Source of the DNA: a virus
Virus record (IMG/VR): IMGVR_UViG_3300030107_006096
Coordinates: 1 to 64,000 of that record
DNA length: 64,000 nucleotides
Direction: 5' to 3' (one strand)
The position numbers were made by a program, and so were the translations under genes. The notes beneath the pieces were generated by a model. That model ran no database searches. It saw nothing but the letters and a program-made list of their open reading frames with translations, and had not been told where the DNA came from. Positions 8,625 to 61,653 of the stretch are shown one piece after another; within the stretch, counting starts at the first letter, position 1; each line of letters begins with the position of its first letter.

Positions 8625-8643
8625 TACTAGAAAGGACAAATAA

Positions 8644-9729: not shown

Positions 9730-9733
9730 TAAG

Positions 9734-9740
9734 AAGGAGA
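9734..9740 (+). promoter_or_regulatory. Ribosome-binding site selecting a TTG start
   Basis: AAGGAGA lies 6 bases before TTG 9747. It supports TTG rather than a downstream ATG, because the residues right after TTG (EFRKRH) align with the ATG-started paralogue (KFRKRY). Confidence 0.75.
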
Positions 9741-9746
9741 TTCCTT

Positions 9747-12515: not shown

Positions 12516-12552
12516 AAAGTTTTGTGTTGTTAATTAAGTTTTAATTATATCA

Positions 12553-12560
12553 ACTAAATA
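12553..12560 (+). promoter_or_regulatory. Possible variant late-promoter box ACTAAATA
   Basis: The same octamer as at 9722, here 19 bases before ATG 12580 in the 64-base AT-rich gap after paralogue B. It is the only gap of this size in the cysteine-rich region, so a promoter here is reasonable but unproven. Confidence 0.3.
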
Positions 12561-12579
12561 TAGTAAAAGGAAATAATTT

Positions 12580-14934: not shown

Positions 14935-14945
14935 AGGAGTAATAT

Positions 14946-44359: not shown

Positions 44360-44829
44360 TGCTTGTGAAACATGGCACCGAATCTCAAATAAAAGAAATA
44401 TACGATACCTTTCGGTTGTATAAAGATATATTTCCACATCTACGATTTGATTATCTTACTCGCAAGGTTAAATCAGATAGATGCATTTATGAAGATGATG
44501 TTGCCATCACTTACACAATCTATCAAAGAAAAAATAAAGTAGGAACGTCTTATGAGAATTTAGAGTTGAAAGCCTCCAAGGGTGATGTTATGATACATCA
44601 ACTTGCAAATGCAAATCCAAGTAACGGCAAGAGCAAGGAGATCGTGCAAAGATTTCTCGAAGAGAATTGTCATGGTAAAAGAGTATGGTTGACTGTTCGT
44701 CAAAACAATGATCGTGCCGTACGCTTTTATGAAAAGATGAATTTCAAAAATGTCGGAACTGTACATTGGATGAAAGGAAAACTACCCGGATATGTCTTCT
44801 GTTATGTCACAAATAAAACCATACTATGA
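44356..44829 (+). CDS. GNAT-like acetyltransferase
   Basis: The 157-residue protein ends with the pattern VWLTVRQNNDRAVRFYEKMNFKNVGTVHW in two blocks (VWLTVRQNNDRAV and FYEKMNFKNVG), the usual strand-helix-loop of the GNAT C-terminal half. A pyrophosphate-binding loop may be NPSNGKSKEIVQRF near residues 92-105, with GKSKE in place of the usual R/Q-x-x-G-x-G/A. The substrate is unknown. The weak loop means it could be a degenerate or specialised acyltransferase. The 3' end overlaps the DNA methyltransferase gene by 38 bases or less. Confidence 0.65.
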   Translation: MMLVKHGTESQIKEIYDTFRLYKDIFPHLRFDYLTRKVKSDRCIYEDDVAITYTIYQRKNKVGTSYENLELKASKGDVMIHQLANANPSNGKSKEIVQRFLEENCHGKRVWLTVRQNNDRAVRFYEKMNFKNVGTVHWMKGKLPGYVFCYVTNKTIL

Positions 44830-46396
44830 ACGCAACAACCATGTGATTGATTCGCATGTGAATTGCAACTTTGAAGATTTACTTGAGATGACTCCAGACG
44901 AGTTTCGTGAATGGGTCATCGAAATGCGTAAGGCAGTAAAACAAGCATGGGACACTTACGGCTGTCCTCCACGAACCGGCAAAGATGAACAAGACATCAT
45001 TGATTCTTTCAATAAGATTGCCGAGTATCCAGTTCATAAATTCACACACACCGATGAACTGTCTGACATGGACGATGATGTAATCATCAACAAGTCTCGT
45101 CTTGGAGTGGAAGTTGATCAATGGTTCTCGAATATGTTCAAGACAAGAATCAACTACACCGAAAAAGATAATGGATATTCTATCTATGATCTGGTAGCCG
45201 ATGATAAGAGATTGGATCAGGTTGTGAAGGGAGCGATGCGTCATCTTCGTCGTGATTCATTTTACACTCATGCACTTTCCGCGATCAAGCATGATAAGAA
45301 ATATGCTGTCGTAGATGTGGGAAGTGGCGATGAATGGATGGAAGCATTCTTCAACAATCCAAATATATTTCGAGGATATGATTTCCTACTTGAACAGGTG
45401 AAGATTCGTGACGGGGCGAACACTGGATATTTTCAGTTAGAACAGGACGACATTCTTCAGCTAACGAAGGATCAGGTGGAGAAGTGGAAGAATAAAATGG
45501 AATACCGCCATTACTCTACTTTTGATATTTCTGCAATGCCTGATGATAAAGTGTATGCAATCCGTATATATAGAAAAGGGAGAAAGGTATTTCCTGCTGC
45601 TTTTAAGTCTTTTAGGATAGGATATATTCAACCTGCGGTAAACTTTCCGCCAATGACTGCGAAATATTTGTATGAAAGATTCACAGAAAATATTAAAGAT
45701 CAAGAACGCATTGTTATATACGACCCGTCAAGTGGGTGGGGCGGCCGCATACTCGGTGCTATGGGTTGTCGGGATGATCGTCGGATTCACTATGTTGGCA
45801 CTGACCCAAATCCTGATAATTTTCTTGATGGCGATTCTTACAGTAAGTATGAGTCTCTCGCTGATTTTTACAACACCAAAACTTATCGCGGAAATCCATT
45901 CTTTTCCGAAACGAACTCTTACCATATTTTCAAAGAGGGTTCGGAGGAGATTGGCAAACACTCTGATTTCCAACAATATAAAGGGAAAACAGATCTTATT
46001 TTTACATCGCCACCCTATTTCAACAGGGAAGCATACTCAGAAGACGAAAATCAATCGTACAAAAAATACGGATCGTCATATGAATCATGGAAAGAAGGTT
46101 TTCTTCGACCAACATTAACAACTTGTGTTGAGTGGTTAAAGGAAGATAGATATTTATTATGGAACGTAGCCGATGTTTTAGTGAGTGGTAAATATTTACC
46201 GATAGAGCAAGATAGTATTGACATATTAGAATCTTTAGGTATGATTTATAAGTATACTTTGAAGATGGGACTGGAAGGAATGCCAGGTCAAAATAGAGTG
46301 GGAGAAGATGGAAAGCCCAAATGTAAAAATTTCTGTCAGGTGAATGGAAAATATTTAAAGTACGAACCAGTATTTGTTTTTTATAAAGGAACTTGA
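44792..46396 (+). CDS. DNA methyltransferase (N6-adenine/N4-cytosine type)
   Basis: The 534-residue protein has motif I DPSSGWGGR at residues 311-319 and catalytic motif IV TSPPYF at 405-410, followed by an HxH-free C-terminal half with LLWNVADV. The I-before-IV order fits the amino-methyltransferase group. The N-terminal 280 residues are unlike common methyltransferases and may contain a target-recognition or ParB-like domain (GSGDEWMEAFF, LEQDDILQLTKDQ). No restriction enzyme gene is adjacent, so it probably protects or marks phage DNA. An alternative start is ATG 44804. Confidence 0.85.
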   Translation: MSSVMSQIKPYYERNNHVIDSHVNCNFEDLLEMTPDEFREWVIEMRKAVKQAWDTYGCPPRTGKDEQDIIDSFNKIAEYPVHKFTHTDELSDMDDDVIINKSRLGVEVDQWFSNMFKTRINYTEKDNGYSIYDLVADDKRLDQVVKGAMRHLRRDSFYTHALSAIKHDKKYAVVDVGSGDEWMEAFFNNPNIFRGYDFLLEQVKIRDGANTGYFQLEQDDILQLTKDQVEKWKNKMEYRHYSTFDISAMPDDKVYAIRIYRKGRKVFPAAFKSFRIGYIQPAVNFPPMTAKYLYERFTENIKDQERIVIYDPSSGWGGRILGAMGCRDDRRIHYVGTDPNPDNFLDGDSYSKYESLADFYNTKTYRGNPFFSETNSYHIFKEGSEEIGKHSDFQQYKGKTDLIFTSPPYFNREAYSEDENQSYKKYGSSYESWKEGFLRPTLTTCVEWLKEDRYLLWNVADVLVSGKYLPIEQDSIDILESLGMIYKYTLKMGLEGMPGQNRVGEDGKPKCKNFCQVNGKYLKYEPVFVFYKGT

Positions 46397-46398
46397 AA

Positions 46399-47832
46399 AT
46401 GGCAAAAAAGAAAAAGGGAAACCTTCTCTACATCATGAACCCTAATTGTGGATGGTGCAAGAAAGCTGATCCTGTAGTTGAGGAATTGGTCAAAGATGGA
46501 TATAAAATTAAGACATTAAATGTCCAGAACCAAGATGATGCAATAAAGGCAAGAGAAGCTATTACAAAGCATGGTATTCAATGCGGAACTCCATTGTTCC
46601 TAGATTCAAAGACAGGTAACATGGTATGTGGTTTTAGGGAAAAAGATATTCTTGAAAAATGGGCAAATGGAGAAGAGATGCCTGCTCCGCCTCCAAGAGA
46701 ACAACCTCAACAGCCTCAACATGTTGAAAAAGAGACTAGAGTTAGATTGGAATATATTTGGCTGGACGGTAAAGAGACAACTGGTATCAGGTCAAAAATT
46801 AAATTTGAAAACATTAAACTGCCTCCTGTGAATCCCCATGCTCCACCTCCTATTGATGAACTCATGGGAAAAATTCCTGATTGGTCATTTGATGGTTCAA
46901 GCACATCTCAGGCAGAAGTAGAGAATAGTGATTTAATTTTGAAGCCTGTTAAGATTGTAAGAAATAGTTTAGAACGACAACAGCCTGGGGGTCAAATATC
47001 ATTAATAGTTTTATGTGAAGTTTTCAATGTAGATGGGACGCCCCATGAGTCAAATGCTCGATATAACTTGAGATCTTTTGTTGATGAAAATGAAATGGAC
47101 GATTTGGTAGTTTCCTCAGAGCAAGAGTATGTATTTTGGAACCATGACTTAGATTTGCCATCTGGTTGGGAGTCTTCGGATAAAGATGGTTCAATGGGCG
47201 AACCTTCAAATGAGGGAGATTACTATTGTGGTTTTGCATTAGACAACTCTACCGTTGGTGGTACTCATAGAATGATTGCAGATTTCCACGCAAATGTTTG
47301 TGGTATGTGTGATATTAGTTTAAGTGGATATAATGCAGAGGTTATGAAATCCCAGTGGGAGTATCAAACAGCACCATCTGATGTTTTAACTTCGGCAGAT
47401 AATCTTTGGATTAGTAGATATCTTTTAATGAGAATTTCTGAACAAAGAGGACTAGGTATTTCTTTTGATCCTAAACCTGTTGACGGAAATTATAATGGTT
47501 CTGGTTGTCATATTAATTTTTCCACCAAGACAATGAGAGAAGGATCAAACGAAATCGTAGAAGAAATCTGTGAGTCACTTGCTTTAAATCACGAAAAAGC
47601 AATTTCATCTTATGGTGTGGGAAATGATAAAAGACTAACAGGAAAAAATGAAACTTCTAAAATTGATAAGTTTACATATGGTAAAGGTGATAGATCTTGT
47701 TCTTTAAGGATTCCAGTTGGAGATTATCTTGAAGATAGAAGACCTGCTGCAAACGTAGATCCCTATGTTGCTTTTCTTAATCTGTCAGAAGTTTTGACAG
47801 ATGTTAATAATAAAGTTTTAGAAAGAGTGTAG
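46399..47832 (+). CDS. Thioredoxin-type domain fused to GSII glutamine synthetase
   Basis: I start at ATG 46399, 8 bases after AAGGA, rather than at TTG 46393. Residues 1-90 of the 477 form a thioredoxin/glutaredoxin-like domain with CGWC at 17-20 and a cis-Pro motif CGTPLF. A Pro/Gln linker follows. Residues 115-477 are glutamine synthetase of the eukaryote-type GSII class: IPDWSFDGSSTSQA, EQEYVFW (metal-binding Glu), NAEVMKSQWEYQ, NGSGCHINFSTK, RLTGKNET and YLEDRRPAANVDPY. All main catalytic motifs appear intact. It would make glutamine from glutamate, ammonia and ATP; the redox domain may regulate it. A phage nitrogen-assimilation role is inferred. Confidence 0.92.
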   Translation: MAKKKKGNLLYIMNPNCGWCKKADPVVEELVKDGYKIKTLNVQNQDDAIKAREAITKHGIQCGTPLFLDSKTGNMVCGFREKDILEKWANGEEMPAPPPREQPQQPQHVEKETRVRLEYIWLDGKETTGIRSKIKFENIKLPPVNPHAPPPIDELMGKIPDWSFDGSSTSQAEVENSDLILKPVKIVRNSLERQQPGGQISLIVLCEVFNVDGTPHESNARYNLRSFVDENEMDDLVVSSEQEYVFWNHDLDLPSGWESSDKDGSMGEPSNEGDYYCGFALDNSTVGGTHRMIADFHANVCGMCDISLSGYNAEVMKSQWEYQTAPSDVLTSADNLWISRYLLMRISEQRGLGISFDPKPVDGNYNGSGCHINFSTKTMREGSNEIVEEICESLALNHEKAISSYGVGNDKRLTGKNETSKIDKFTYGKGDRSCSLRIPVGDYLEDRRPAANVDPYVAFLNLSEVLTDVNNKVLERV

Positions 47833-47837
47833 ACTAA

Positions 47838-48197
47838 ATGCCAAGGAAAAAAAGAATTGATAATATCACTGGTTTGAGTGATAATACTAACCTATCATAT
47901 GAAGGATATCTAAAGGCTGCTTTGGCTTTAATGTCAGATCAGTTTTCAATCAGAGTTTATAAGTTGGCTCCCAAAAATGAATATCCAATATTCGAGAGAG
48001 GGAAGGATATCAGAGTTCAATTCTACTGCAACAAAAAAAGAATATATGAATTTATCATAGAAAAGATGTTCTATTACCAAAGCAATAGAAACAAGGAGGA
48101 CAGGGCATGGATGAGAACTCATGCTTCTGTTCACCTAAATATGGTAAAGAATGCCATTATTAGGAAAGAGAAAAATGTCTCTAAGATACCCGGATGA
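47838..48197 (+). CDS. Small basic protein of unknown function
   Basis: The 119-residue protein follows glutamine synthetase after 5 bases and overlaps the next gene by 23 bases. It is Lys/Arg-rich with hydrophobic stretches (GYLKAALALMSDQFSIRVYKL, IYEFIIEKMFYYQS), probably alpha/beta. No motif identifies it. Its place between metabolic and DNA genes is uninformative. Confidence 0.55.
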   Translation: MPRKKRIDNITGLSDNTNLSYEGYLKAALALMSDQFSIRVYKLAPKNEYPIFERGKDIRVQFYCNKKRIYEFIIEKMFYYQSNRNKEDRAWMRTHASVHLNMVKNAIIRKEKNVSKIPG

Positions 48198-48675
48198 AAT
48201 TTCTTTTTTAAAAGAACAAATATCAGAATTGTTAAGATACAATGATGTTATTTTAGATGACATTGTTTACATGTACTATGTCTATAGAGAACCTGAAAAT
48301 GTTTTTGTTGCAAGAAGAAACTCAAGAAAGCCATCTACTGCTAGACAGACTCCAAAGACTGCTTTTAGTTCATTAGACATCATCGGTAATCAACTAGTAA
48401 TTAAAATTTTTGAAGCATTACACGGCCACAACAAATTTTCCAATAATGAAAATATTGGAGGAAAATTTAACATAGTCGGAAAGTTTAAAATGGTTGATGA
48501 AAGTGGAGATTATGTTCGCTATAACATGGGAGATGTGGTATACTTCAATGGTAAAACTTATATCGCTACCAGAAATACAACAGGCTGTACGCCAGGACAT
48601 AAACATCCATATTGTGATTCGTGGAAAGTGATTGGTTTAGATGATAGTGTGGGTTACAAGGAAAGTGGTTTTTAG
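48175..48675 (+). CDS. Protein with C-terminal chitin-binding-like (CBM5/12) module
   Basis: I use ATG 48175, since AGGAAAGAG lies 4 bases upstream; an earlier in-frame GTG/ATG-type start at 48151 lies deeper in the previous gene. The product has 166 residues. The N-terminal 60 are helical (EISFLKEQISELLRYND). The C-terminal 60 contain YNMGDVVYFNGKTYIATRN and WKVIG, the pattern of short carbohydrate-binding modules of chitin-binding type (G-D-x-V-x-x-N-G-x-x-Y, then W-x-x-x). Such modules also occur on phage fibres. The ligand is unknown. Confidence 0.55.
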   Translation: MSLRYPDEISFLKEQISELLRYNDVILDDIVYMYYVYREPENVFVARRNSRKPSTARQTPKTAFSSLDIIGNQLVIKIFEALHGHNKFSNNENIGGKFNIVGKFKMVDESGDYVRYNMGDVVYFNGKTYIATRNTTGCTPGHKHPYCDSWKVIGLDDSVGYKESGF

Positions 48676-49717: not shown

Positions 49718-50413
49718 ATGATTACTGCGACTAGCGTGAAATTGTCAAAAGAGACACTTTCAATTCTTAAAAACTTTTCTGCACACAACAGTAACTTGTT
49801 GGTTAAGCCGGGAAATGAAATTAATACAATCACACCTGCAAAGAACGTAGTTGCGAAGGCGACTGTGCAGGAAGATTTTCCTGTTGAATTTGGAATCTGG
49901 GACTTGAATAAGTTTCTAGGAACAATTTCTCTTTTCAACGATCCTGAATTTACTTTTGATGAGAAGTGTGTTCGTATTGAAGGCGAAGATGGTGCAAAGG
50001 TGGATTACTATTATTCCGAACCTAGACTTCTTTCTACGTTGACAAAAGATGTTAATATGCCTGAGTCAGTTGTTCACTTTTCAATAACAGAGGATAACTT
50101 TATCTCATTACAAAGAGCAGCTTCAGTTCTACAACTTCCAGATCTTTGTATTCGATCTAACGACAATAATGAAATTTTATTGGTTGTTCTTGATAAAAAG
50201 AGTTCAACATCAAATCAATTTGCTATAACTGTTGGTGAAAATGAAACTGGTGCTAGTTTTGAATTTTACCTTAAGATGGAGAATATTAGACTTCTTGCTG
50301 GCAATTATGACGTATCAGTTTCTAAGACTGTAGTTAGTAAGTTTTCTCATCAATCTACGGATTTAGTCTACTACATAGCACTAGAGAATGATTCTACTTT
50401 CAGTGGAGATTGA
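49718..50413 (+). CDS. 45: Sliding clamp gp45
   Basis: The 231-residue protein is almost equal in length to T4 gp45 (228). It starts with the clamp pattern VKLSKETLSILKNFSAHNSNLLVKPG and has DLNKFLGTISLF and a C-terminal DLVYYIALE strand. It forms the trimeric ring that tethers polymerase and also activates late transcription through gp55. GGAG precedes the start. Two fucose genes, not gp44, follow it, which breaks the T4 order gp45-gp44-gp62. Confidence 0.95.
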   Translation: MITATSVKLSKETLSILKNFSAHNSNLLVKPGNEINTITPAKNVVAKATVQEDFPVEFGIWDLNKFLGTISLFNDPEFTFDEKCVRIEGEDGAKVDYYYSEPRLLSTLTKDVNMPESVVHFSITEDNFISLQRAASVLQLPDLCIRSNDNNEILLVVLDKKSSTSNQFAITVGENETGASFEFYLKMENIRLLAGNYDVSVSKTVVSKFSHQSTDLVYYIALENDSTFSGD

Positions 50414-50415
50414 TT

Positions 50416-51315
50416 ATGAAAACTTTAGTGACGGGCGGTAATGGACTTGTAGGTTCAACAATCGATTCTGATTTTAAACCCACAAGAGAAGGCTTAGATC
50501 TCATGAACATAGATGAGATTTGTGAATATATTATTCACAATGACATAGATTCTATTGTCCACTGTGCTGCTAAGGTTGGTGGAATTAAGGCAAACACAGA
50601 ACAACTAGGTCAATTTTATTACGATAACATATCAATCAACACAAACATTCTTGAAGCGGCAAGAAAAACAAAAGTGAAGAAGGTAGTTTCTTTTCTTTCT
50701 ACTTGTGTTTTCCCAGAAGAAGCAACATACCCATTGACTTCAGATCAGATGCACAATGGAGAACCACATCCATCTAATTACGCATATGCTTATGCAAAAA
50801 GAATGCTAGAAGTTCAGAGTAGAGCTTACAGGGATGAGTACGGTTGCAATTTTATTACGGTAATACCGTGTAATATCTACGGTCCAAATGATAATTACAA
50901 TTTGGATTCCGGACATGTTATCCCGTCTCTAATTCATAAATGTTATCTAGCGAAAAAGAATAATACAGATTTTGAAATTTGGGGAACTGGAACTCCATAC
51001 CGTGAATTTATATATTCAAAAGATGTGGGATATCTTACTCAGTGGGCATTAGAGAACTATGATGATCCAGAACCTTTAATTCTTTCTCCTGATGAGGAAA
51101 TAAGCATTGCAACTATTGCTCAAGAGATTGCATGGAGAATGGGATTTGAAGGTAACATATTTTACAATCAGGAAAGAGATGGTATACATAGAAAACCATC
51201 TGATAACAGTAAAATAAAGTCACTGTTGCCTGAGTATAAGTTTGTTCCTATTGAAATGGGGCTAAAGGAAAGTATAGATTGGTTTATAAAAAATTACGAT
51301 GAGGCTAGAAAATGA
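50416..51315 (+). CDS. fcl: GDP-L-fucose synthase
   Basis: I start at ATG 50416, 7 bases after GGAG. The 299-residue protein is a short-chain dehydrogenase/reductase: TGGNGLVGS near residue 6-14, HCAAKVGGI, a catalytic Ser in SFLSTCVFP, and Tyr124-x3-Lys128 in YAYAK. CNIYGPNDNYNL and GTGTPYREFIY are characteristic of GDP-fucose synthase. It turns GDP-4-keto-6-deoxymannose into GDP-L-fucose by epimerisation and reduction, the step after the neighbouring gmd product. Its 3' end overlaps gmd by 4 bases. Confidence 0.93.
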   Translation: MKTLVTGGNGLVGSTIDSDFKPTREGLDLMNIDEICEYIIHNDIDSIVHCAAKVGGIKANTEQLGQFYYDNISINTNILEAARKTKVKKVVSFLSTCVFPEEATYPLTSDQMHNGEPHPSNYAYAYAKRMLEVQSRAYRDEYGCNFITVIPCNIYGPNDNYNLDSGHVIPSLIHKCYLAKKNNTDFEIWGTGTPYREFIYSKDVGYLTQWALENYDDPEPLILSPDEEISIATIAQEIAWRMGFEGNIFYNQERDGIHRKPSDNSKIKSLLPEYKFVPIEMGLKESIDWFIKNYDEARK

Positions 51316-52301
51316 AAAGAGCATTAATTACAGGTATAAATGGTCAAGACGGATCATATCTAGCAGAGTTTCTGCTTGAAAAAGGATATGAAGTTCATGG
51401 TATTCTCAAGAGAAACTCTGTCGCAGAAAACCAGACTGCTCGTTTGGATAATTGTTATGAAGATTTACATTTATACTATGGAGATCTAACTGATCTATCA
51501 TCTTTAATTTCGATTCTACAAAAGGTACAACCCGATGAGGTTTATAACCTAGCAGCACAGTCTCATGTTCGCATTAGTTTTGATGTCCCTATCTATACTG
51601 CGTGTGCTACAGGATTGGGAGTTCTCAATGTATTTGAGGCATGTCGTCTAATATGCCCAAAGACTAAAATTTATCAAGCATCATCATCAGAGATGTTTGG
51701 AAACTGCATTGACGATGATGGATTTCAAAGAGAAACTACTGCTATGAGACCCGTAAGCCCTTACGGTTGTTCTAAAGTTTTCGCATACAACATAGCAAAG
51801 AATTATTGTCATTCGTATGATATGTTTATATCTAATGGAATTCTATTCAATCATGAATCACCAAGAAGAGGATCTAATTTTGTAACTAGCAAAGTTGTAA
51901 AGGCAGCAGTTGCAATTAAAATGGGCAAACAAAAAGAATTAAGAATGGGCAACTTAAATGCAAGTCGTGATTGGGGTCATGCAAAGGATTATGTAAAGGC
52001 TATGTGGATGATTCTTCAGCATGACACACCGGATGACTTTGTTTGCTCCACCGGCATTTCACACAACGTAAAATATCTTTGCGAATATACTTTCAATTCT
52101 CTTGATATGAACTATGAAGATTATATAATTACAGATGAAAAGTATCTTCGTCCAGAGGAATTGGAACATCTTAAGGGGGACTCTACTAAACTCAGAGAAA
52201 CTTTAGGATGGGAACCAGATTATACTTTTGAACAAATGATAGAAGAAATGATAGACGTTGAGCTTTCCAAGCACGGATTAAAACGAGAGGATATAGTATG
52301 A
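51312..52301 (+). CDS. gmd: GDP-mannose 4,6-dehydratase
   Basis: The 329-residue protein has the NADP-binding TGINGQDGS at residues 7-15, SSSEMFG at 124-130, Tyr151-x3-Lys155 in YGCSK and the family motif NHESPRRGSNFVT. Length is slightly below bacterial Gmd (about 370). It converts GDP-mannose to GDP-4-keto-6-deoxymannose, supplying the adjacent Fcl. The two genes overlap and form a complete GDP-fucose pathway, feeding the fucosyltransferase-like gene at 58229. It overlaps gp44 by 4 bases, so it is coexpressed with replication genes. Confidence 0.96.
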   Translation: MKRALITGINGQDGSYLAEFLLEKGYEVHGILKRNSVAENQTARLDNCYEDLHLYYGDLTDLSSLISILQKVQPDEVYNLAAQSHVRISFDVPIYTACATGLGVLNVFEACRLICPKTKIYQASSSEMFGNCIDDDGFQRETTAMRPVSPYGCSKVFAYNIAKNYCHSYDMFISNGILFNHESPRRGSNFVTSKVVKAAVAIKMGKQKELRMGNLNASRDWGHAKDYVKAMWMILQHDTPDDFVCSTGISHNVKYLCEYTFNSLDMNYEDYIITDEKYLRPEELEHLKGDSTKLRETLGWEPDYTFEQMIEEMIDVELSKHGLKREDIV

Positions 52302-53251
52302 CAGTTGCAGAAGCCACAAAAGATTTTTTGTGGGTTGAAAAGTATAGACCTAAAAGCATTAATGAATGCGTTCTTCCAAACTCTATTAAAAAAACTTTCA
52401 AGCAAATGGTCGATTCTGGTGAATCTCAGAATTTGCTTTTGTCTGGAGGTGCAGGTTGCGGAAAGACAACTATTGCAAGAGCGTTGTGTAATGAATTGGG
52501 AGCAGACAATATCCTGATAAATTGTTCAGAGAATGGAAACATAGATACTCTTCGCACCACTATTCGAGAATTTGCAAGCTCTGTTTCTCTAACAAATTCA
52601 AAGAAGGTTGCTATCCTCGATGAGTTTGATTATTCGAATGCACAGAGTATTCAACCTGCACTGAGGGGAGCGATTGAAGAGTTTGCTAATAACTGTAGAT
52701 TTATTCTAACTTGTAATTATAAAAACAGAATCATTTCTCCTATTCATTCTCGTTGCACGAATATCGATTTCCAAATTCCAAACAAAGAGAAACCTATTCT
52801 CGCACTAGAGATGATGGAACGAATTAAATCTATTCTTAAAACAGAACAGGTAGATTTCGAAGACAAAGTTTTGGCAGAATTGATTCAAAAGTATTTTCCA
52901 GACTTCAGAAGAATCTTAAATGAGTTGCAAAGATATTCGGTTGGTGGTAAAATTGATGTAGGGATTCTATCTCAGATAGGAGAACTGAATGTAAAGCAAC
53001 TGATGAAGCACATGAAAGATAAAGATTTTTCAGGTGTTAGAAAATGGGTTGTTAAGAACTTGGATAATGATCAAACACAAATCTTCAGAAAGATATATGA
53101 TGGTTTGTATGATTATTTGGAGCCACAAAGTATTCCTTTAGTGGTGTTAATTCTAGGAGAGTATCAGCATAAAGCAGCTTTCGTTGCTGACGCTGAAATA
53201 AATATGGTTGCATGTCTAGTACAAATTATGATGGAAGCAGGATTTAAATAA
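52298..53251 (+). CDS. 44: Clamp loader large subunit gp44
   Basis: The 317-residue AAA+ protein has WVEKYRPKSINEC, Walker A GGAGCGKT at residues 50-57, Walker B ILDEFD at 106-111 and the SRC arginine-finger motif at 151-153. T4 gp44 has 319 residues. With gp62 it opens and loads the gp45 ring at primer ends. A methyltransferase and a co-chaperonin gene separate it from gp62. It shares one base with the next gene. Confidence 0.97.
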   Translation: MTVAEATKDFLWVEKYRPKSINECVLPNSIKKTFKQMVDSGESQNLLLSGGAGCGKTTIARALCNELGADNILINCSENGNIDTLRTTIREFASSVSLTNSKKVAILDEFDYSNAQSIQPALRGAIEEFANNCRFILTCNYKNRIISPIHSRCTNIDFQIPNKEKPILALEMMERIKSILKTEQVDFEDKVLAELIQKYFPDFRRILNELQRYSVGGKIDVGILSQIGELNVKQLMKHMKDKDFSGVRKWVVKNLDNDQTQIFRKIYDGLYDYLEPQSIPLVVLILGEYQHKAAFVADAEINMVACLVQIMMEAGFK

Positions 53252-54030
53252 TGTCTAAAGCTATAGAAAATTTTGACGAGTCTTTATACACACATAATTT
53301 CATTACAGATCTTTATGATGAGGGATTTATGGAGAGATCATATCAAGACAAAAGAGTTCAAAATATAAATTTTGCTAGAATCTTGATAGATTTTTTCAAA
53401 TTTGATAATCGAAGTGTAGTCGATTTTGGATGTGGAACAGGTGTTCATTTAAATGTGTTCAAAGAAAGAGGTTGCGAAGTTCGAGGATTTGAATATTCAT
53501 ATGACGCAGCAAAACCACAACATGAGAAGATGGGACTTACTGAAGAGGAAATTACATTTGGTGATGTTTCTGAACCGATTAAGCTGTCTAAAAAGTATGA
53601 TGTTGCAATGTCCATAGAAGTTGCAGAACATATCCCGAAAAGTAAAAGCGATAATCTAGTTTCAAATCTAGTCAACGCTACGGATGGGATTATATTTTTT
53701 ACTGCTGCTGGTCCAAACCAAAGCGGAACTGGTCATATTAATTGTCAACCAAAGGATTTTTGGAGATCTAAATTCGCAAAACATGGTTGGTATATACCAC
53801 TCGCAGAAAATAAATGGAGTTACATTGCGCCGATTGTAGATAAATTCACCCCAGTTAATTATCCCTGCACATGCAATCCAAGAGCGGTATGGTATTGGTT
53901 AGTATCTAATTTAATGATATTCCAGAAAGAAGAAAAGATACAAGAATGCTTCGCTTATATAAGAGAACTAGAACACGGACCGGAATGGAATTATGAGGAC
54001 CCATTGAAGGGTTTAAAAATTTATGACTAA
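53251..54030 (+). CDS. Class I SAM-dependent methyltransferase
   Basis: The 259-residue protein has motif I VVDFGCGTGVHLNVF near residues 54-68, motif II GFEYS and AMSIEVAEHIP as motif IV/post-I. The second half (GTGHINCQPKDFWRSKFAKH, FTPVNYPCTCNPRAVWYWL) is typical of sugar or small-molecule methyltransferases seen in phage and capsule loci. The acceptor is unknown. It starts at the gp44 stop (ATAATG overlap), inserted in the replisome operon like gmd and fcl, so it may modify the same glycan. Confidence 0.85.
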   Translation: MSKAIENFDESLYTHNFITDLYDEGFMERSYQDKRVQNINFARILIDFFKFDNRSVVDFGCGTGVHLNVFKERGCEVRGFEYSYDAAKPQHEKMGLTEEEITFGDVSEPIKLSKKYDVAMSIEVAEHIPKSKSDNLVSNLVNATDGIIFFTAAGPNQSGTGHINCQPKDFWRSKFAKHGWYIPLAENKWSYIAPIVDKFTPVNYPCTCNPRAVWYWLVSNLMIFQKEEKIQECFAYIRELEHGPEWNYEDPLKGLKIYD

Positions 54031-54050
54031 TTTACAGATGGAGACAAATT

Positions 54051-54359
54051 ATGACAGAATATAGGCCACAAGGATCATGGTTATTTTTAGAAAAAGTTGA
54101 TTACGAAGAAGAAATAACAACGGAATCTGGTATTGTATATAAAGCAAAACAGGTTCTAGATACAGTTTATGTGGAAGCAACTATCTTAGCAATGGGACCG
54201 GGATTGCCCCTTCCTAGTGGAGAGATCCCAACTCCAGAATATTCAGTTGGTGATAAAGTTCTATATGATGTCCGATCCAGAAAAGGAACATATAAAGAGT
54301 ATGATATGATTCGTATGGAGGATGTAGTTTCAATCGTGGATGAAGATGAAGCTGAGTAA
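54051..54359 (+). CDS. GroES-like co-chaperonin (gp31 analogue)
   Basis: The 102-residue protein fits the GroES fold: RPQGSWLFLEKVDYEEEI at the N terminus, a mobile-loop-like TTESGIVYKAKQ, ATILAMGPGLPLPSG and VGDKVLYDVRSRKGTYKEYDMIRMEDVVSIV at the end, given in pieces. T4 gp31 (111 residues) replaces host GroES so that GroEL can fold gp23; the same role is inferred here. It overlaps gp62 by 20 bases. Confidence 0.85.
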   Translation: MTEYRPQGSWLFLEKVDYEEEITTESGIVYKAKQVLDTVYVEATILAMGPGLPLPSGEIPTPEYSVGDKVLYDVRSRKGTYKEYDMIRMEDVVSIVDEDEAE

Positions 54360-54729
54360 TTTTTTAAATTCGATTAATCATGAAAAGAATGATCTATTCT
54401 CAGACGATACGGAGTATGCTGAGAAGATGTATCAGCCATTTGTGATAAACAGATCTCTATCTTATTTTCCTGATACTATTTTTCATGCGAACGAGATGAA
54501 TGTTTTAAATTCTCTCTCTGAAAAAATGCAGTATGATTATTTGAAATGTTCTATTCGCAAAAGAAAAAGATTCAGCAAATGGATTAAGAATGATAAAATC
54601 GATGATTTGGATCTCATAAAAGAATATTTTAACTATTCAAACAGCAAAGCTGAAGAGGCGCTGAGAGTTCTTACAGAGGATGCCATAGAGGAAATCCGCA
54701 AAAGAACATACACAGGGGGGGTTAAATAA
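54346..54729 (+). CDS. 62: Clamp loader small subunit gp62
   Basis: The protein of about 127 residues (129 if the first ATG at 54340 is used) matches the short gp62 of marine T4-like phages; T4 gp62 has 187. It contains NFLNSINHEKNDLF, YQPFVINRSLSYFPDTIFHA and a Lys/Arg-rich KRKRFSKWIKN, typical of the family. It completes the gp44/gp62 clamp loader. regA follows 43 bases later, preserving the T4 order. Confidence 0.9.
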   Translation: MKLSNFLNSINHEKNDLFSDDTEYAEKMYQPFVINRSLSYFPDTIFHANEMNVLNSLSEKMQYDYLKCSIRKRKRFSKWIKNDKIDDLDLIKEYFNYSNSKAEEALRVLTEDAIEEIRKRTYTGGVK

Positions 54730-54772
54730 TTTTATAGCATATATATTAGGTGAACTAATTAAGGAAAATGCT

Positions 54773-55180
54773 ATGAGTGATGATGTTTTTAAAGGACTTG
54801 GAGTCGAAGTAAAATTAAATAATGAAGATGACTTTTTGAAGGTGTGTGAAACTTTAACAAGAATTGGTATTTCCTCCAAGAAAGAAAATAAACTTTACCA
54901 ATCTTGTCATATCTTACATAAAAGAGGAAGATATGCAATTCTTCATTTCAAAGAGTTGTTTGTTCTGGATGGTTTAGAGACTGATATATCTGTGACTGAT
55001 ATAGGAAGAAGAAATAAGATCGCAGATCTTTTAGATGAGTGGGAGTTAGTAGAAATTATTGATCCTGAAAGATATGAGGAACCGCAAATATCTTTAGCTC
55101 AACTGAAAATTCTTCCCTATAAAGAAAAAGATGACTGGAATTTGATACCCAAATACCATATTGGGAACTATAGAAAATGA
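54773..55180 (+). CDS. regA: RegA translational repressor
   Basis: The 135-residue protein is slightly longer than T4 RegA (122) and follows gp62, as in T4. It shows the pattern VEVKLNNEDDFLKVCETLTRIGI, LYQSCHILHKRGRYAILHFKELF and DIGRRNKIADLLDEWELVEII, given in pieces. RegA binds the start regions of many early mRNAs, including gp44, gp45 and its own, and blocks ribosome entry. The 43-base AT-rich leader with AAGGAAAATGCT could be its own target. Confidence 0.93.
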   Translation: MSDDVFKGLGVEVKLNNEDDFLKVCETLTRIGISSKKENKLYQSCHILHKRGRYAILHFKELFVLDGLETDISVTDIGRRNKIADLLDEWELVEIIDPERYEEPQISLAQLKILPYKEKDDWNLIPKYHIGNYRK

Positions 55181-55186
55181 GTAACT

Positions 55187-55873
55187 ATGTCAAAATTATT
55201 AATCAAATTTCCTTCTCGGAACAGACCTGACAAGTTCAAAAAGGTTCTGAGAAAGTACATCGATTTTCTTTCAGGAAATCATGATGTTCGTTTTGTCATC
55301 TCTATGGATGAAGATGATAAAAAAATGAACACGAAAGATATAAAAACATTTCTAAAGAGACTTCGTAAAGGTGGAGTAGATCTCGTTTATCATTACGGAA
55401 ACTCAAAAAGTAAAGTTGAGGCATGTAATGCAAATATGGAAAATGAAAATGCAGATGTAATCATGTTGATCTCGGATGATATGATTCCTCAACTTAGAAA
55501 TTATGACGATGTAATTTTTGAATACTTTTCAAAGGCATTTCCAGATTTTGATGGTGGTATCAAGTTTCACGATGGACTCAGAAATGATATACTAATGACT
55601 CTTCCTATCATTGGCTGGAAAGTTTATGAGAAGTGGGGATACATCTATCATCCCGATTACACTTCTTTATATTGTGATACTGAACAAACTTTTGCTTTAC
55701 AGATAATGGGAAAGTTAGCAGCGGTTGATATTTGTCTTGCGAAACATGAATGGACACCAGAACCTTTTGATGAACTTCATGCAAGAAATGAAAATGCACA
55801 GATGTATCACAAAGATGGTGCAGTTTTCCAAAGAAGAAAAATGAATAATTTTGATGTAGGAGTTTTATCGTGA
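55187..55873 (+). CDS. GT-A fold glycosyltransferase-like protein
   Basis: The 228-residue protein begins LIKFPSRNRPDKFKKVLRKY, the usual family-2 opening, and has VISMDEDD and a DxD-like MLISDDMIP near residue 98. A later FDGGIKFHDG and PIIGWKVYEKWGYIYHPDY suit the acceptor half. It starts the glycan island directly after regA, in the place where T4 carries gp43. Donor and acceptor cannot be told. The next gene overlaps by 4 bases (GTGA). Confidence 0.8.
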   Translation: MSKLLIKFPSRNRPDKFKKVLRKYIDFLSGNHDVRFVISMDEDDKKMNTKDIKTFLKRLRKGGVDLVYHYGNSKSKVEACNANMENENADVIMLISDDMIPQLRNYDDVIFEYFSKAFPDFDGGIKFHDGLRNDILMTLPIIGWKVYEKWGYIYHPDYTSLYCDTEQTFALQIMGKLAAVDICLAKHEWTPEPFDELHARNENAQMYHKDGAVFQRRKMNNFDVGVLS

Positions 55874-56784
55874 GTGAAACTATTTTATCTTATTGTTTGT
55901 TTGAACCAATTACTATGCACTTACATAGAACTTGGGACAAAAATAGAATGGAAATGAATCGGTATTGGTATAACATACCTGCACTTCTAATTGCAAACGA
56001 AATACTATATCCTAATTTTGATACTAGATTTTATATAAGTCCCAGTGTTAAAAATAATCCTCTTTTTCCTATATTGAAAGACACAGGGGTTCAGGTGGAA
56101 GAAGTTGAATTAGAATTTGAAAGAACTTCAGAACCCATGTTATGGAGAATGATGCCTCTTTGGGATGATGTTTCTTGTTTTTTCACAAGAGATGTTGACT
56201 CAATTCCAAACAGAGAAGAGGCACAATGCACCTTGTACTTCAAGAATAGTGATCACCATATTCAAACAATAAGATCGCATGAGAATCACTATCATGAACA
56301 GGGATGTGATATGTTAGGAGGTCTTTCTGGATTTAAACCTAAACTGATAAAGAAGAAACCACAAAATTTTACAAGCTATTACAAATCTAAAAATGATATG
56401 CCTTGGGCCCAAGATCAATATCTTATGGTCAATACTTTCATATATTCACAAGAGGATAAGTATATCAATAAGAGATTTTTAGATTGTCCTATAAACAACC
56501 AGAGCAGATCAGCAAAGTTTTCTTGTTCGGAAATAAATGAGAAACAAAAAAATACTATTTCTTTCTCTCAAAAACAAGAAGAGGTTTTAGAAATAATAGA
56601 AAGAAATAACATAAGCACATGGGCAGGAGAACCTTGCGACACAAGAGGAAACATTCTAAAACAATTTTTATCATTAGATACAAAGATGGGAAGAAAGATA
56701 AATAAACTATTCAAGAGTGATGATTCTATTGCGAATTTTTATGGAGTATGTAATGAAGATTTATCTAAACAAGTCGTCGCATAA
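55870..56784 (+). CDS. Putative glycosyltransferase with RDVDS motif
   Basis: The 304-residue protein starts at GTG 55870, overlapping the upstream stop. It contains CFFTRDVDSIPNREE, a DxD-like metal/sugar-nucleotide motif near residue 108, preceded by PMLWRMMPLWDD. Later MLGGLSGFKP and PWAQDQYLM agree with an acceptor site. This resembles capsule- and LPS-type transferases of GT-A fold, but the family is not certain. The 3' end overlaps the next gene. Confidence 0.65.
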   Translation: MSETILSYCLFEPITMHLHRTWDKNRMEMNRYWYNIPALLIANEILYPNFDTRFYISPSVKNNPLFPILKDTGVQVEEVELEFERTSEPMLWRMMPLWDDVSCFFTRDVDSIPNREEAQCTLYFKNSDHHIQTIRSHENHYHEQGCDMLGGLSGFKPKLIKKKPQNFTSYYKSKNDMPWAQDQYLMVNTFIYSQEDKYINKRFLDCPINNQSRSAKFSCSEINEKQKNTISFSQKQEEVLEIIERNNISTWAGEPCDTRGNILKQFLSLDTKMGRKINKLFKSDDSIANFYGVCNEDLSKQVVA

Positions 56785-57538
56785 AGGAGATACATTCCGA
56801 GAGTTACTTGGAATGTGGGAAGAGTCTGGTTACTGTAAATTGCATAAATCCAATGACAGATTTTGTTGGGTGAATGGAGTTGGTAACATTTTGCTATATG
56901 AATATGCAAGATTTGATTTCATTCCAAACATGTGGAAATTTGGACTCTTTTCCAATAGTCAACTTTTCTATGGCAACTGCTCTCCTTGGATATTTTGGGC
57001 AAGACATCCCAGAAAGTTAGAAAAATCTATTGACGAGGGAATTCTTTCTTATTCCGAAAGAGACACCTCTTCTATTTTCCTAGGAAAAATAGAAAATCAA
57101 ATACAATATAATGGAAGAATGGGAAAGGATTGGGGCGAAGTTATAGAAGAATTTAGTATGCCAATTTCTTTTGGTGATTCTAAATCTTATCCATACACAC
57201 AAGAACAATATTTAAATAAAGTAAAAAGTTCTAAGTTCGGACTGGTGTTGCCTGGTTATGGACCTAAATGTAACAGAGAAATAGAATACTTTGGTTTGGG
57301 CACAGTTCCAATCTATACAACAGATACTGGCCTTCATTATTACGATAGTCTTAAGGAAGGTGTTCATTATTTAATGGTAGAATCACCAGAAGAAATTCCT
57401 TCTTTGTTGGAAAAAATAGACGAAAAAACTTGGAATGAACTTTCATCAAACGGTAGAGAATGGTACAATAAAAATTGTTCTCGCAAAGGATCCTTTGAAA
57501 CTACACAAAAAATTATAAAGGAACATGCCGGTGGATGA
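56753..57538 (+). CDS. Exostosin-like glycosyltransferase
   Basis: I choose ATG 56753, because GGAG lies 6 bases upstream and earlier in-frame ATGs lack a site. The 261-residue protein contains KFGLVLPGYGPKCNREIEYF and GTVPIYTTDTGLHYYDSLKEGVHYL, in two pieces; these form the GT-B C-terminal signature seen in exostosin and related families (FGLxLxGxGxKxxRExE). The N-terminal half has WARHPRKLEKSI. It overlaps neighbours on both sides and so is part of one translational unit. Confidence 0.75.
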   Translation: MKIYLNKSSHKGDTFRELLGMWEESGYCKLHKSNDRFCWVNGVGNILLYEYARFDFIPNMWKFGLFSNSQLFYGNCSPWIFWARHPRKLEKSIDEGILSYSERDTSSIFLGKIENQIQYNGRMGKDWGEVIEEFSMPISFGDSKSYPYTQEQYLNKVKSSKFGLVLPGYGPKCNREIEYFGLGTVPIYTTDTGLHYYDSLKEGVHYLMVESPEEIPSLLEKIDEKTWNELSSNGREWYNKNCSRKGSFETTQKIIKEHAGG

Positions 57539-58232
57539 TTCAATCACTGTTATACTTACAGTCTGGAAAAGACATAATTTAGAAGAGCAGTTGATTGCAA
57601 TTAAAGATCAGACTGCCAATATTGATTCTATCTACGTTTATCAAAACGAATCACATGTTGATATAAGTCATCTAAAAGAAAAGTATGACTTCAAACATGT
57701 GCAATCTAAAGACATGAACTTCAAGTTCCACGGAAGATTCACCCTTCCTTTATTATTTGAAACAAAATATACAGCAATATTTGATGATGATACTATTCCA
57801 AATAAAGGATGGTTGCAGCATTGTAAAAATCTTTGCGACAGTAAAAATTGTATAGTTGGAGCCAACTGTAGAAATAACGACGGATCGGGTCATGGCCTTT
57901 GTGATGGTAAACTAAATGCAGATCCTATCAAATGTGATATTGTTGGTCACTGTTGGTTCTTTAAAACAGAATGGATTCATCACATGTGGAGAGAACCCGC
58001 CTTCACTTTCGACAACGGAGAGGACATACATTTCTGTGCATCATGTCAAATATATGGTGGTATAGATTCTTATCTTCCTTCACAAACACAGCAGGACATG
58101 GACAACTGGGGAGATACAAGACCTCTGTTGGGAGCAGACAACCACGCTACATGGAAACGAGAAGATCACAATCCAATACGAAAACAGCTATATGAATATT
58201 GGATTTCAAAAGGATGGAAGGTTACAAAATGA
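57525..58232 (+). CDS. Glycosyltransferase family 2-like
   Basis: The 235-residue protein has the GT-A pattern ITVILTVWKRHNLEEQL, AIFDDDTIPNKGW (DxD near residue 89) and later DIVGHCWFFKTEWIHHMWRE and NGEDIHF, where GED is the usual catalytic acid region. No membrane helix is present. It overlaps the exostosin-like gene by 14 bases and the GT11-like gene by 4. Sugar and acceptor are unknown. Confidence 0.85.
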   Translation: MPVDDSITVILTVWKRHNLEEQLIAIKDQTANIDSIYVYQNESHVDISHLKEKYDFKHVQSKDMNFKFHGRFTLPLLFETKYTAIFDDDTIPNKGWLQHCKNLCDSKNCIVGANCRNNDGSGHGLCDGKLNADPIKCDIVGHCWFFKTEWIHHMWREPAFTFDNGEDIHFCASCQIYGGIDSYLPSQTQQDMDNWGDTRPLLGADNHATWKREDHNPIRKQLYEYWISKGWKVTK

Positions 58233-58933
58233 TTTCAATTAGATATTTTCCTCCGGACTGGGGCTTCGGAAACAGAATGTTGTACTACAATAACTTAAGA
58301 CAGATTGCCGAGAACAATGCAGACTCTTGGTCCTGTGTTCCTTGGGAAGGTCATGACATGTTTAGAGGTAACATGTTAGGGGAAAAGGCAATGGGAAATC
58401 TTGTACTGAATCCTTGTCTTGGGGAAAAGTTTTTTGAAATGCATAGCGTTCCAACAAGAGAGATCTTTCAACTGAATGAAGAAAAACATTTTGAAGGGAA
58501 AGTTGCCGCAGTTCATTTCAGGGGTGGTGATTTTTTCCAATGGAATCCTGATGCTGTTTTAGATAAAGATTACTATCTGAATGCAGTCGATTCTATTAAA
58601 GATGAAGTTGATAAGTTTATACTCTTCACAGAAGATGAATCTTTGCCTTCCTATTCCGCTGTTGAAAAATATTTCGAGGATGAGGGAGTTGACTACGACA
58701 TTGGTGATAATCAAAGAAGCAATTATGTTGATGATTTTAGAAACATGTCGGCTTGTGATTATATTATTTCTAGTCCATCAACTTTTTGTATTTGTTCTGC
58801 CATGATAGGAAACAAAACTAATGTAATCCATTCTAAAAAATGGATAGATAATAGAGTGAACGCTCAAGATAAATTTTGGGTAGATTTAAACAACGGCGGA
58901 AATGAAGATTATTCAATATGGAGATTAGTATGA
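58229..58933 (+). CDS. GT11-like fucosyltransferase
   Basis: I start at ATG 58229, behind GGAAGG, overlapping the previous stop (ATGA). The 234-residue protein has FGNRMLYYNNLRQ at the N terminus, the HxRxGD signature as HFRGGDF, then FILFTED and MSACDYIISSPSTFCICSAM near the end. These are motifs of the alpha-1,2-fucosyltransferase/GT11 superfamily. With gmd and fcl in the same window, GDP-fucose is the likely donor. The exact linkage is not determined. A similar HIRSGD protein begins at 63453. Confidence 0.8.
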   Translation: MISIRYFPPDWGFGNRMLYYNNLRQIAENNADSWSCVPWEGHDMFRGNMLGEKAMGNLVLNPCLGEKFFEMHSVPTREIFQLNEEKHFEGKVAAVHFRGGDFFQWNPDAVLDKDYYLNAVDSIKDEVDKFILFTEDESLPSYSAVEKYFEDEGVDYDIGDNQRSNYVDDFRNMSACDYIISSPSTFCICSAMIGNKTNVIHSKKWIDNRVNAQDKFWVDLNNGGNEDYSIWRLV

Positions 58934-59550
58934 ATTATGAGAAGTATTGGATAGATGGGATGGGACTACACTCCACCCAACTAGAAAAAATTGCACAAAT
59001 TCTAAAAACCGGAGTCAAAAATGTGGTTGAATTTGGTTCTGGTAAATCCACTGAGTTCTTAGTTGATTTCAGAGAAGAGAATGAACTAGATTATGAAATA
59101 TGTTCATTTGATCATCATCCATTTTATGGATATAAAGAGACTCATGATTTCTTAACAACACATCGTCGAGACATAGTTCGATGTAGTGATGAATGTTATG
59201 AAGAAATGTTTAATGAGAAGAAATACAATAAGTCCTGTTTTGTTAACTGTCAAAATGAAATGGATAATTTTCGAATTAAAAATTCTTTTTATGATATAAC
59301 AGAGGAATATTTACCAGAAAATATAGATTTGGTTATTCTAGATGGACCCAATGGAAATGGTAGAAGTATATCATTTCTACATTTAAAAGATAAGTTGTCT
59401 AAAGAGGCACACATTCTAATCGATGATTCAGATCATTATGATTTTGTAGAACGAAGTAAAAAAATATTAGATGTAGAGGTTATTGTTCATGAAAATGATA
59501 CCTCAATCCATCCGTTATTCAATTACGCATTATTAAAGGTGACATCATGA
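58930..59550 (+). CDS. Class I methyltransferase-like protein
   Basis: I use ATG 58930, with GGAG about 6 bases upstream; the earlier ATG 58918 is in the preceding gene. The 206-residue protein has VVEFGSGKSTEFLVDF as motif I and DLVILDGPNGNGRSISF then AHILIDDSDHYDF, a Rossmann pattern with an acidic, metal-type DGPNG/DD pair as in catechol-like and sugar O-methyltransferases. The acceptor is probably a sugar of the same glycan. Confidence is moderate, because post-motifs are weak. Confidence 0.7.
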   Translation: MNYEKYWIDGMGLHSTQLEKIAQILKTGVKNVVEFGSGKSTEFLVDFREENELDYEICSFDHHPFYGYKETHDFLTTHRRDIVRCSDECYEEMFNEKKYNKSCFVNCQNEMDNFRIKNSFYDITEEYLPENIDLVILDGPNGNGRSISFLHLKDKLSKEAHILIDDSDHYDFVERSKKILDVEVIVHENDTSIHPLFNYALLKVTS

Positions 59551-60350
59551 ATAAAGTATATCTAAAGACATATTTTTATGTCCCTCATGAAATAGATTTT
59601 TTGATTATGAATTTATTAGAGTCTTATGATCACATAGACAAATTTATCATATGTGAATGTAATAGGACACACACTGGTCAACCTAAAGAATTTATCTTCG
59701 AAGAATATCTAGATAGATTCCCAGAAGAATTCAGAGACAAAATTTTGTACATTCCTTGTAACATTGAAGATTACACTGTAGAGGCATATGAGAACGAGGA
59801 TGACATTCATAATATCAACGAACCTGTAATGAGAAGTTTCTTTATGAAACAGATGACTTTTAATGATGATGACATTATTCTTTCAGTTGATGCAGATGAA
59901 ATTATCTATAGGGATGCTTACAAATACATCATCAAAGAAGTAAAAGAAAAAGATTTGGTAAGATTCAATCTACATCAGTTCTTCTACAAAAAGACTTATT
60001 TGTGGGAAGGTAAAGATTTTGTTTCGCCAATAGCAGCGAAATATAAAGTATTTAAAAATCATTTCCCCTGTAACTGGAGAGATGTTGGACCTATTCTTCC
60101 AATAAAGGTTGGTTGCCATTTCTCATGGTGCATGACTCCAAAGGAAATGGTTCATAAACTCCACACATATAGTCATCCCAGATATAGATTTTGTGCGGAC
60201 GAAGAGGTATTGAAGAATGCTATTGATAATAAAGAATATCCGTTTGATGAAAATGTAGATTTTAATATTGTAGAACTTGATTATAATCATGAGGTGTTAC
60301 CAGAATGTCTGAAAAGTCAATCGCAATACTTGGAAAAGGCCCCAGTGTAG
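59547..60350 (+). CDS. GT17-like glycosyltransferase
   Basis: The 267-residue protein resembles family GT17 (beta-1,4-N-acetylglucosaminyltransferase III of animals and its bacterial/phage relatives): FLIMNLLESYDHIDKFIICE, DDDIILSVDADEI (Asp115 and Asp117), RFNLHQFFYKKTYLW and the GCHFSWC motif, then HKLHTYSHPRYR. The motif set is complete. It probably adds a hexosamine to the glycan built by this island. It overlaps the next gene by 46 bases. Confidence 0.82.
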   Translation: MNKVYLKTYFYVPHEIDFLIMNLLESYDHIDKFIICECNRTHTGQPKEFIFEEYLDRFPEEFRDKILYIPCNIEDYTVEAYENEDDIHNINEPVMRSFFMKQMTFNDDDIILSVDADEIIYRDAYKYIIKEVKEKDLVRFNLHQFFYKKTYLWEGKDFVSPIAAKYKVFKNHFPCNWRDVGPILPIKVGCHFSWCMTPKEMVHKLHTYSHPRYRFCADEEVLKNAIDNKEYPFDENVDFNIVELDYNHEVLPECLKSQSQYLEKAPV

Positions 60351-60898
60351 ACAAGTGTACGAAAGAGTTTATTGATTCTTTCGACGAAGTTGCTGCTTGT
60401 GGAAGACCTGTTTTTACAGGTTATGAACATCTAATTGGCAACAGAGCAAAGTATGATTTTGCAAATAGAACTGCTACTCCATACACACAAGAGGAAGCAC
60501 AGAGATTAGGCATAGAACACTTCATTGATACTGGAGGAGGCACAAAAATCAGAGAAAGATTTAGTCATGGAGACTTAGATCCTTCAACTGGCATCCTAGC
60601 TTTTCATCATTTCCTAGAAAAACCAGAGTATACTAAGATTGCCTTGATTGGTTTTGATTTGTTTCAAACAATGGAGAAGGTGTATTATTATAAAAATGAA
60701 GAATTTGATCCTGCTTTAACATGGTTATGGGAAAATGGAACATACGATTCGGAAGGAAGGTTGACCATTGTTAGTGGTCATAAGACAGAGTTGATATTTA
60801 AATATCTAAATGACATGTTTGATTTATATAAAGATAAACAATTTTACATCATGTCTTCTTATAAATTTAGTGAAAAGGAAAATTTAAAAGTATTATGA
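60305..60898 (+). CDS. Sialyltransferase-like (GT29-type) protein
   Basis: The 197-residue protein opens SIAILGKGPSVDKC, a nucleotide-sugar binding loop, and has DPSTGILAFHHFL followed by KIALIGFDLF. This echoes the sialyl motifs L and S of GT29 (a G-x-G-P-S loop, then P-S-T-G-x-x-x-L). It is shorter than animal enzymes, but phage and bacterial versions of this size exist. The C-terminal EFDPALTWLWENG and SGHKTELIFKYL are unassigned. CMP-sugar synthesis genes are not in the window, so the donor is uncertain. Confidence 0.65.
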   Translation: MSEKSIAILGKGPSVDKCTKEFIDSFDEVAACGRPVFTGYEHLIGNRAKYDFANRTATPYTQEEAQRLGIEHFIDTGGGTKIRERFSHGDLDPSTGILAFHHFLEKPEYTKIALIGFDLFQTMEKVYYYKNEEFDPALTWLWENGTYDSEGRLTIVSGHKTELIFKYLNDMFDLYKDKQFYIMSSYKFSEKENLKVL

Positions 60899-61653
60899 AA
60901 AATATAGATCTTAAGAAAAAATATGATGAGGTTTTCAAGGAAGGTTCTGAAAACTTTTTTACATGCAACGTCTTCAGAGAGGCATGGACAATCGCCGGCG
61001 CCGAAGATTGGTCGGGGAAAAAAGTAATGGACATTGGTTGTGGTGAAGGTATGTTGCCCACAATGATTGCACATGCTGGAGCTTCAGATGTAGTAGGAGT
61101 TGACTATAGCGAAGAGGCTATTGATAACGCCAATAACAAATTTGAAATTGAAAATCTACAGTTTGTTTGTGGGGACTACAGAGAAGTTGAAGGAAAGTTT
61201 GACATCATCACAATGCAAGGAGTCATGGAACATTTAGATGAACCTTGGGAGGAGTTGAAGAATATGATGGACAATTACTTAGAAGAGGATGGTGTCTTAG
61301 TTACAAGTTCTCCTTCATTCTTAAATCCCAGAGGATATGTATGGATGACTTTAGCTAAATTGTTTGATGTTCCAATGTCACTTACTGATCTTCATTTCAT
61401 ATGCCCATTTGATATGGAAAATTTTTGCGAAGAAAATGATTATGAATTAGATTATACATCTATCCATCAGGATTGGGGCTCAGGAGAAACATTAATAAGA
61501 GATTTCAACAAGAGACTTCGTAATGCCCTTCGTGATGCGGATATGGATAATAGTAAAGTTGATGATCTTTTAGAATGGTTACATCAAGCAACTCCATACT
61601 TCGAAACAAATGAAGCGTCAGGAGCTATTGTAGTTTATAGGATAACAAAATGA
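60895..61653 (+). CDS. SAM-dependent methyltransferase (UbiG-like)
   Basis: The 252-residue protein has motif I VMDIGCGEGMLPTMIA, motif II VVGVDYSEEAI, FVCGDYREV and ITMQGVMEHLDEPWEE, a complete class I set. Later SSPSFLNPRGYVW is common in methyltransferases of O-antigen loci. The likely acceptor is a sugar in the glycan made here. Start and stop overlap neighbours by 4 bases each. Confidence 0.88.
   Translation: MKNIDLKKKYDEVFKEGSENFFTCNVFREAWTIAGAEDWSGKKVMDIGCGEGMLPTMIAHAGASDVVGVDYSEEAIDNANNKFEIENLQFVCGDYREVEGKFDIITMQGVMEHLDEPWEELKNMMDNYLEEDGVLVTSSPSFLNPRGYVWMTLAKLFDVPMSLTDLHFICPFDMENFCEENDYELDYTSIHQDWGSGETLIRDFNKRLRNALRDADMDNSKVDDLLEWLHQATPYFETNEASGAIVVYRITK

Follow-up and report, generated by a model that had tools for sequence, protein, structure and literature searches.

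Glutamine synthetase (GS) genes have been reported from several groups of viruses. The GOS survey contains a large viral group in the tree of type II enzymes (GSII), and reports of type II GS in marine viruses go back to 2007 (PMC1821046). Virus GS from oceanic viromes is covered in a review (PMC9083009), and GS genes are carried by SAR86 viruses (PMC10721903), moraphages (PMC12619734), and digester phages (PMC11944383). These reports contradict the suggestion of an earlier sequence-only reading of the DNA studied here, that GS in a T4-like phage was not a described auxiliary metabolic gene. The virus GS genes of PMC1821046, PMC12619734, and PMC10721903 likewise come from aquatic phages or viruses and are presumed to be auxiliary genes of nitrogen metabolism; however, the accessible sections of the three papers do not mention a thioredoxin (Trx) fusion, allele replacement, or a T4-like gp46–gp45 locus. 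In plants, GS2 is stabilized and activated by thioredoxin acting in trans (PMC8219043). Full-text searches of open-licence papers returned no Trx–GS fusion in phages, in agreement with the sequence-only reading, which had regarded the fusion as new. Thus, phage and virus GS is already known, whereas the covalent Trx–GS fusion is new as far as we found.

The fusion gene lies in a 64,000-nucleotide window, the whole stretch of DNA analyzed here, which belongs to an 84,976-bp IMG/VR virus record. The gene, its parts, and its surroundings are:

44792–46396, plus strand: upstream neighbor, DNA-methyltransferase-like protein of 534 amino acids
46385–46390, plus strand: AAAGGA ribosome-binding-like site, read from the sequence, 8 nt 5′ of the ATG
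46399–47832, plus strand: Trx–GSII fusion gene, a single uninterrupted open reading frame of 477 amino acids plus stop
46417–46683, plus strand: thioredoxin-fold module, residues 7–95, with CGWC at 17–20, CGTP at 62–65, and Cys77
46684–46734, plus strand: Pro/Gln-rich linker, residues 96–112
46735–47808, plus strand: type II glutamine synthetase, residues 113–470, β-grasp plus catalytic domain
46399–48650, plus strand: allele-replacement island, delimited by DNA identity to loci L016 and L017
47838–48197, plus strand: downstream neighbor, 119-residue protein with no family match, within the island

The reading frame starts with the ATG at position 46399. An in-frame TTG at 46393 is a possible alternative, but the position of the AAAGGA site favors the ATG. 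The AAAGGA site overlaps the 3′ end of the methyltransferase-like gene, and the two genes are therefore probably translationally coupled. The fusion gene begins 3 nt past the stop of the upstream gene and stops 5 nt short of the next one. The AlphaFold2 model of the fusion protein, calculated as a monomer from a 72-row alignment, has a mean pLDDT of 90.3, and its low-scoring parts are mainly the N-terminus, the linker, and a GS loop at approximately residues 260–290. It was used instead of a model from an 8-row alignment, which reached a pLDDT of only 67. The fusion of a thioredoxin fold to GSII, proposed in the sequence-only reading, is borne out by the one open frame, Pfam, a PDB search, AlphaFold2 with Foldseek, and 29 further contigs.

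By sequence and predicted fold, the GS part is a type II glutamine synthetase. In Pfam, Gln-synt_C matches over the cut-off (E 8.4e-15) and Gln-synt_N just below it (E 4.7e-7), and residues 114–464 match solved type II enzymes in a sequence search of the PDB (E 4e-71). The top Foldseek match is GSII of S. coelicolor (4bax, TM 0.92 by target), followed by plant and animal GSII subunits, and nothing closer turned up in a viral fold library. The solved enzymes (4bax, maize 2d3a, human 2qc8, and yeast 3fky) share their length and catalytic residues with the phage GS, at TM ~0.8–0.92 by target and 36–38% identity, but those matched here lack a Trx domain, and the phage enzymes branch apart from them. 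The EQEY (241–244), NGSGCHINFS, and EDRRPAANVDPY motifs named in the sequence-only reading are present. Residues of the predicted metal, ATP, and glutamate sites are conserved in the window protein: the positions D63, S66, E134, E136, E203, H253, R299, E305, R319, R324, E338, and R340, in the human GS numbering that we presume for them from knowledge of the family, show no variation among 26 fused sequences. The metal ligand equivalent to E196 is D or E in 23 of the 26, the window protein having Asp, like the plant enzyme. The remaining three have T, T, and Q, and some of the fused proteins may therefore be weak enzymes. Among the phage loci, L041, L043, L049, and L062 have T, T, Q, and H, respectively, at this ligand in otherwise intact GSs.

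The N-terminal module is, judged by its CxxC and cis-Pro motifs and by the model, a divergent thioredoxin-fold domain. The CGWC and cis-Pro CGTP motifs are invariant in a 23-row alignment of the module, as are its four cysteines, which include those of the motifs, and the alternation of strands and helices in the AlphaFold2 model fits the thioredoxin fold. The Pfam Thioredoxin profile gives 22.9 bits on the full protein (E 8.6e-5) and 18.4 bits on the module alone, below the gathering score of 23.5; we therefore refer to a thioredoxin-fold module rather than to a thioredoxin in the strict sense. The module has a CxxC past the first strand, a cis-Pro motif, and a predicted fold in common with Pfam Thioredoxin PF00085, Glrx-like PF05768, and PHROG 22, but matches them weakly, below the Pfam cut-off. 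It is set apart by its CGWC, by two more cysteines that do not vary, and by a Pro-rich tail leading to varied partners.

The partners of the module were identified in a profile search of viral contigs, which gave 64 matches, 29 with GS and 35 with other tails. Including the window, the architectures comprise GS (30), a coiled-coil tail (17), a short helical tail (11), and a basic tail (7), with similar Pro-rich linkers behind the module in all four. As 35 contigs carry the module on one of three non-GS tails, GS is not its obligatory partner. A tree of Trx domains rests on few alignment columns and sets only the coiled-coil type cleanly apart. An annotated phage collection had no match to the module. 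No separate copy of it was found in 25 records of phages with unfused GS, most of them fragments, whereas the positive controls were recovered in 11 of 11 cases. Genes resembling IMP dehydrogenase/GMP reductase and nucleoside 2-deoxyribosyltransferase, named by eye, are close to the helical-tail form in L012 (3435–4475 and 4459–4890), and L008 (3–800), another phage with this form, has the same kind of neighbor, also by eye.

Protein and profile searches of viral contigs identified the fusion in 29 IMG/VR contigs besides the window. The 80 closest viral GSII loci comprise 27 fused and 53 unfused forms, and at least 565 viral stretches contain GSII relatives, with host contamination possible for some. 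The phage collection contained no record with the fusion; its best matches, at 41%, are GSs without the Trx part from uncultured phages of very large size. The fused GSs fall within one phage-GS group, interleaved with unfused forms in a pattern that requires at least six gains or losses; a one-sided split of fused and unfused forms appeared in none of 200 bootstrap trees. The tree alone is compatible with both gain and loss of the module, and the remnant-like, Cys- and Pro/Gln-rich N-termini of the unfused L053 (MACGCNN...PPQPPQPQ) and L029 (short) favor some losses. The sequence-only reading had called the GSII motifs eukaryote-type, which does not imply a eukaryotic origin: the phage GSs group apart from yeast and plant sequences, and a transfer from eukaryotes was thus rejected. 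A GSII gene of viral contig L089 (6001–7002) has a SAR86 bacterial GS as its nearest row, a separate host-like acquisition that agrees with PMC10721903.

The window phage is T4-like by its capsid, terminase, and replication gene content, as the sequence-only reading had assigned it. Its gene order is terminase, sheath, portal, gp23, UvsW, late sigma factor, gp47, gp46, T4 RNase H, gp45, and gp44, with some of the assignments made by eye, and T4-type markers were matched for the major head protein (phrog_138, E 4e-134), terminase, late sigma factor, gp45 clamp, and T4 RNase H. The isolates closest to it in gp23, at ~51–53% identity, are marine myophages of Methylophilales, Pelagibacter, and cyanobacteria. 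The methyltransferase-like gene is the customary 5′ neighbor of GS in related phages, and most fused contigs have the fusion between gp47/gp46 and RNase H/gp45/gp44. The GS gene occupies the same position in almost every fused contig and in many relatives without the fusion, and it therefore looks like an old resident of the lineage. Elsewhere in the window, positions 347–19646, upstream of gp13/gp14, encode a run of giant Cys-rich proteins of up to 1710 residues, several with 6–11% Cys and with repeated GACC/CC motifs; similar proteins are found in G048, G002, G009, and G014. Positions 50410–63484 hold a large sugar-nucleotide and glycan block with GDP-fucose synthase-, GDP-mannose dehydratase-, glycosyltransferase-, and methyltransferase-like genes. 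L014 also has a glycan block, with sialic-acid synthase-, CMP-sialate synthetase-, and UDP-GlcNAc epimerase-like proteins recognized by eye, and a collagen-like Gly-X-Y protein (15489–16814), probably part of a tail fiber.

The fusion gene marks the start of a region in which related phages differ. The window DNA is 93–97% identical to L016 and L017 until the start codon of the fusion, 45–76% identical across the fusion and two unassigned genes that follow it (47838–48197 and 48151–48675), and ~95% identical again near 49,550. In many phage pairs, the GSs are 56–66% identical though the flanking proteins are 93–99% identical. Synonymous differences in GS of such pairs are ~0.6–0.7, near saturation, against distinctly smaller values in most flanking genes, such as 0.0–0.23 (L019/L022) and 0.15–0.43 (around L026/L040), which shows the replacement of whole alleles and not merely fast change of the protein. 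In the pairs L026/L040 and L038/L040, the Trx parts are ~85–96% identical and the identity falls at the linker. Trx and GS thus look like separate modules exchanged independently among related phages. Purifying selection is strong on both domains, dN being well under dS for GS and Trx in most close pairs.

With moderate confidence, we favor the explanation that the gene encodes a GSII that supplies glutamine and bears a portable, tethered thiol-reductase module, acquired and/or lost repeatedly. A flexible Pro/Gln tether would connect each GS subunit to a CGWC thioredoxin-fold domain at its N-terminus and, by analogy with solved GSIIs, the subunits would assemble into a decamer bearing as many as ten redox domains. 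During infection, the GS part probably combines glutamate and ammonia into glutamine. Type II enzymes lack an equivalent of the site at which type I enzymes are adenylylated, and the phage GS should therefore escape that host control. The module was presumably joined to GS inside one uncultured marine T4-like lineage and then gained or lost several times. Its likeliest job would be general thiol–disulfide exchange, for which GS would be one convenient carrier, and it may also hold GS in a reduced state; a GS-directed role is possible because the fusion is retained in many phages. By gene content, the gene is a putative auxiliary metabolic gene, a host-type metabolic gene carried on a phage. 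No GATase_2 glutamine amidotransferase was found in the ten phage records searched, so that the phage genes seen point to no use for additional glutamine.

Alternatively, the Trx domain could act on the GS to which it is joined as an inbuilt redox switch or protector and make glutamine synthesis track the redox state of the infected cell, which we consider rather unlikely. The covalent fusion is kept in 30 sequences with purifying selection on both domains, and chloroplast GS2 is activated and stabilized by thioredoxin m and thiols (PMC8219043), so that a GSII helped by thioredoxin has a precedent. The redox sensitivity of GS2 is, however, attributed to cysteines special to the isoform, whereas no alignment column separates a GS cysteine of fused from unfused phage GSs, and fusion-specific regulatory cysteines were thus rejected. 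Cys 206, 277, and 301 are invariant and Cys 391 is common in phage GSs, but the unfused forms conserve them equally. In addition, the module is also borne by non-GS partners, close relatives do without it, and the independent recombination of Trx and GS alleles is evidence against tight co-adaptation. The coupling of nitrogen assimilation to redox state put forward in the sequence-only reading consequently has no specific support from the cysteines, the other partners, the Trx-less relatives, or the separate exchange.

We are similarly doubtful that the Trx–Pro-linker is a general tethering and redox cassette by which T4-like marine phages carry exchangeable cargo, with GS as a cargo under host-matched turnover, its alleles being replaced far more than its flanks. 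It is equally doubtful that, as this cassette reading would have it, GS turns over as if it met a strain-variable host factor, such as a regulator or a defence, beyond making glutamine.

It is less probable still that the module serves DNA precursor synthesis or a replication step, for example as an electron donor of ribonucleotide reductase, with GS merely its carrier. The L226 and L207 proteins (types Trx-C and Trx-D, with coiled-coil and basic tails) are encoded directly upstream of the genes for UvsX and a gp32-like ssDNA-binding protein, with the phage ribonucleotide reductase phrog_367 5–8 kb away, and the fusion of the window lineage sits among gp47/gp46 and RNase H/gp45/gp44. However, phrog_367 was found in none of 14 Trx–GS records, even where these reach 85 and 123 kb, versus 6 of 14 unfused-GS records, and PF02867 is absent from G000 and G048. 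A role as reductant of a phage-encoded reductase was thus rejected for the fused records searched; the records are fragments, and a host ribonucleotide reductase could be the partner.

That the module handles thiols or disulfides of giant Cys-rich virion proteins of the phage itself is very unlikely. G000 and G048, the only fused records that reach the region, encode several proteins of 360–1922 residues with 4–13% Cys upstream of gp13/gp14, at an overall Cys content of 2.5–3.0%, and such proteins occur in three Trx-only records as well. Nevertheless, the unfused G002, G009, and G014 have Cys-rich proteins and no Trx module in their contigs, G038 and G034 carry the module and no such large protein on the contig, and in this very small sample the association may merely follow phylogeny.

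An assembly or annotation artefact that joined two genes by chance has a negligible probability and was rejected, as nothing was found in its favor, and the same junction recurs in 29 other viral contigs with purifying selection on either side.

The gene would be the first described covalent redox–GS fusion in phages, as far as we found, and it has spread through an uncultured marine T4-like lineage. The swaps of GS alleles between otherwise near-identical phages suggest host-dependent selection on GS. Together, the fused GSs, the unfused GSs, and the Trx modules on other partners offer a natural test of an old question, the control of type II GS by thioredoxin.
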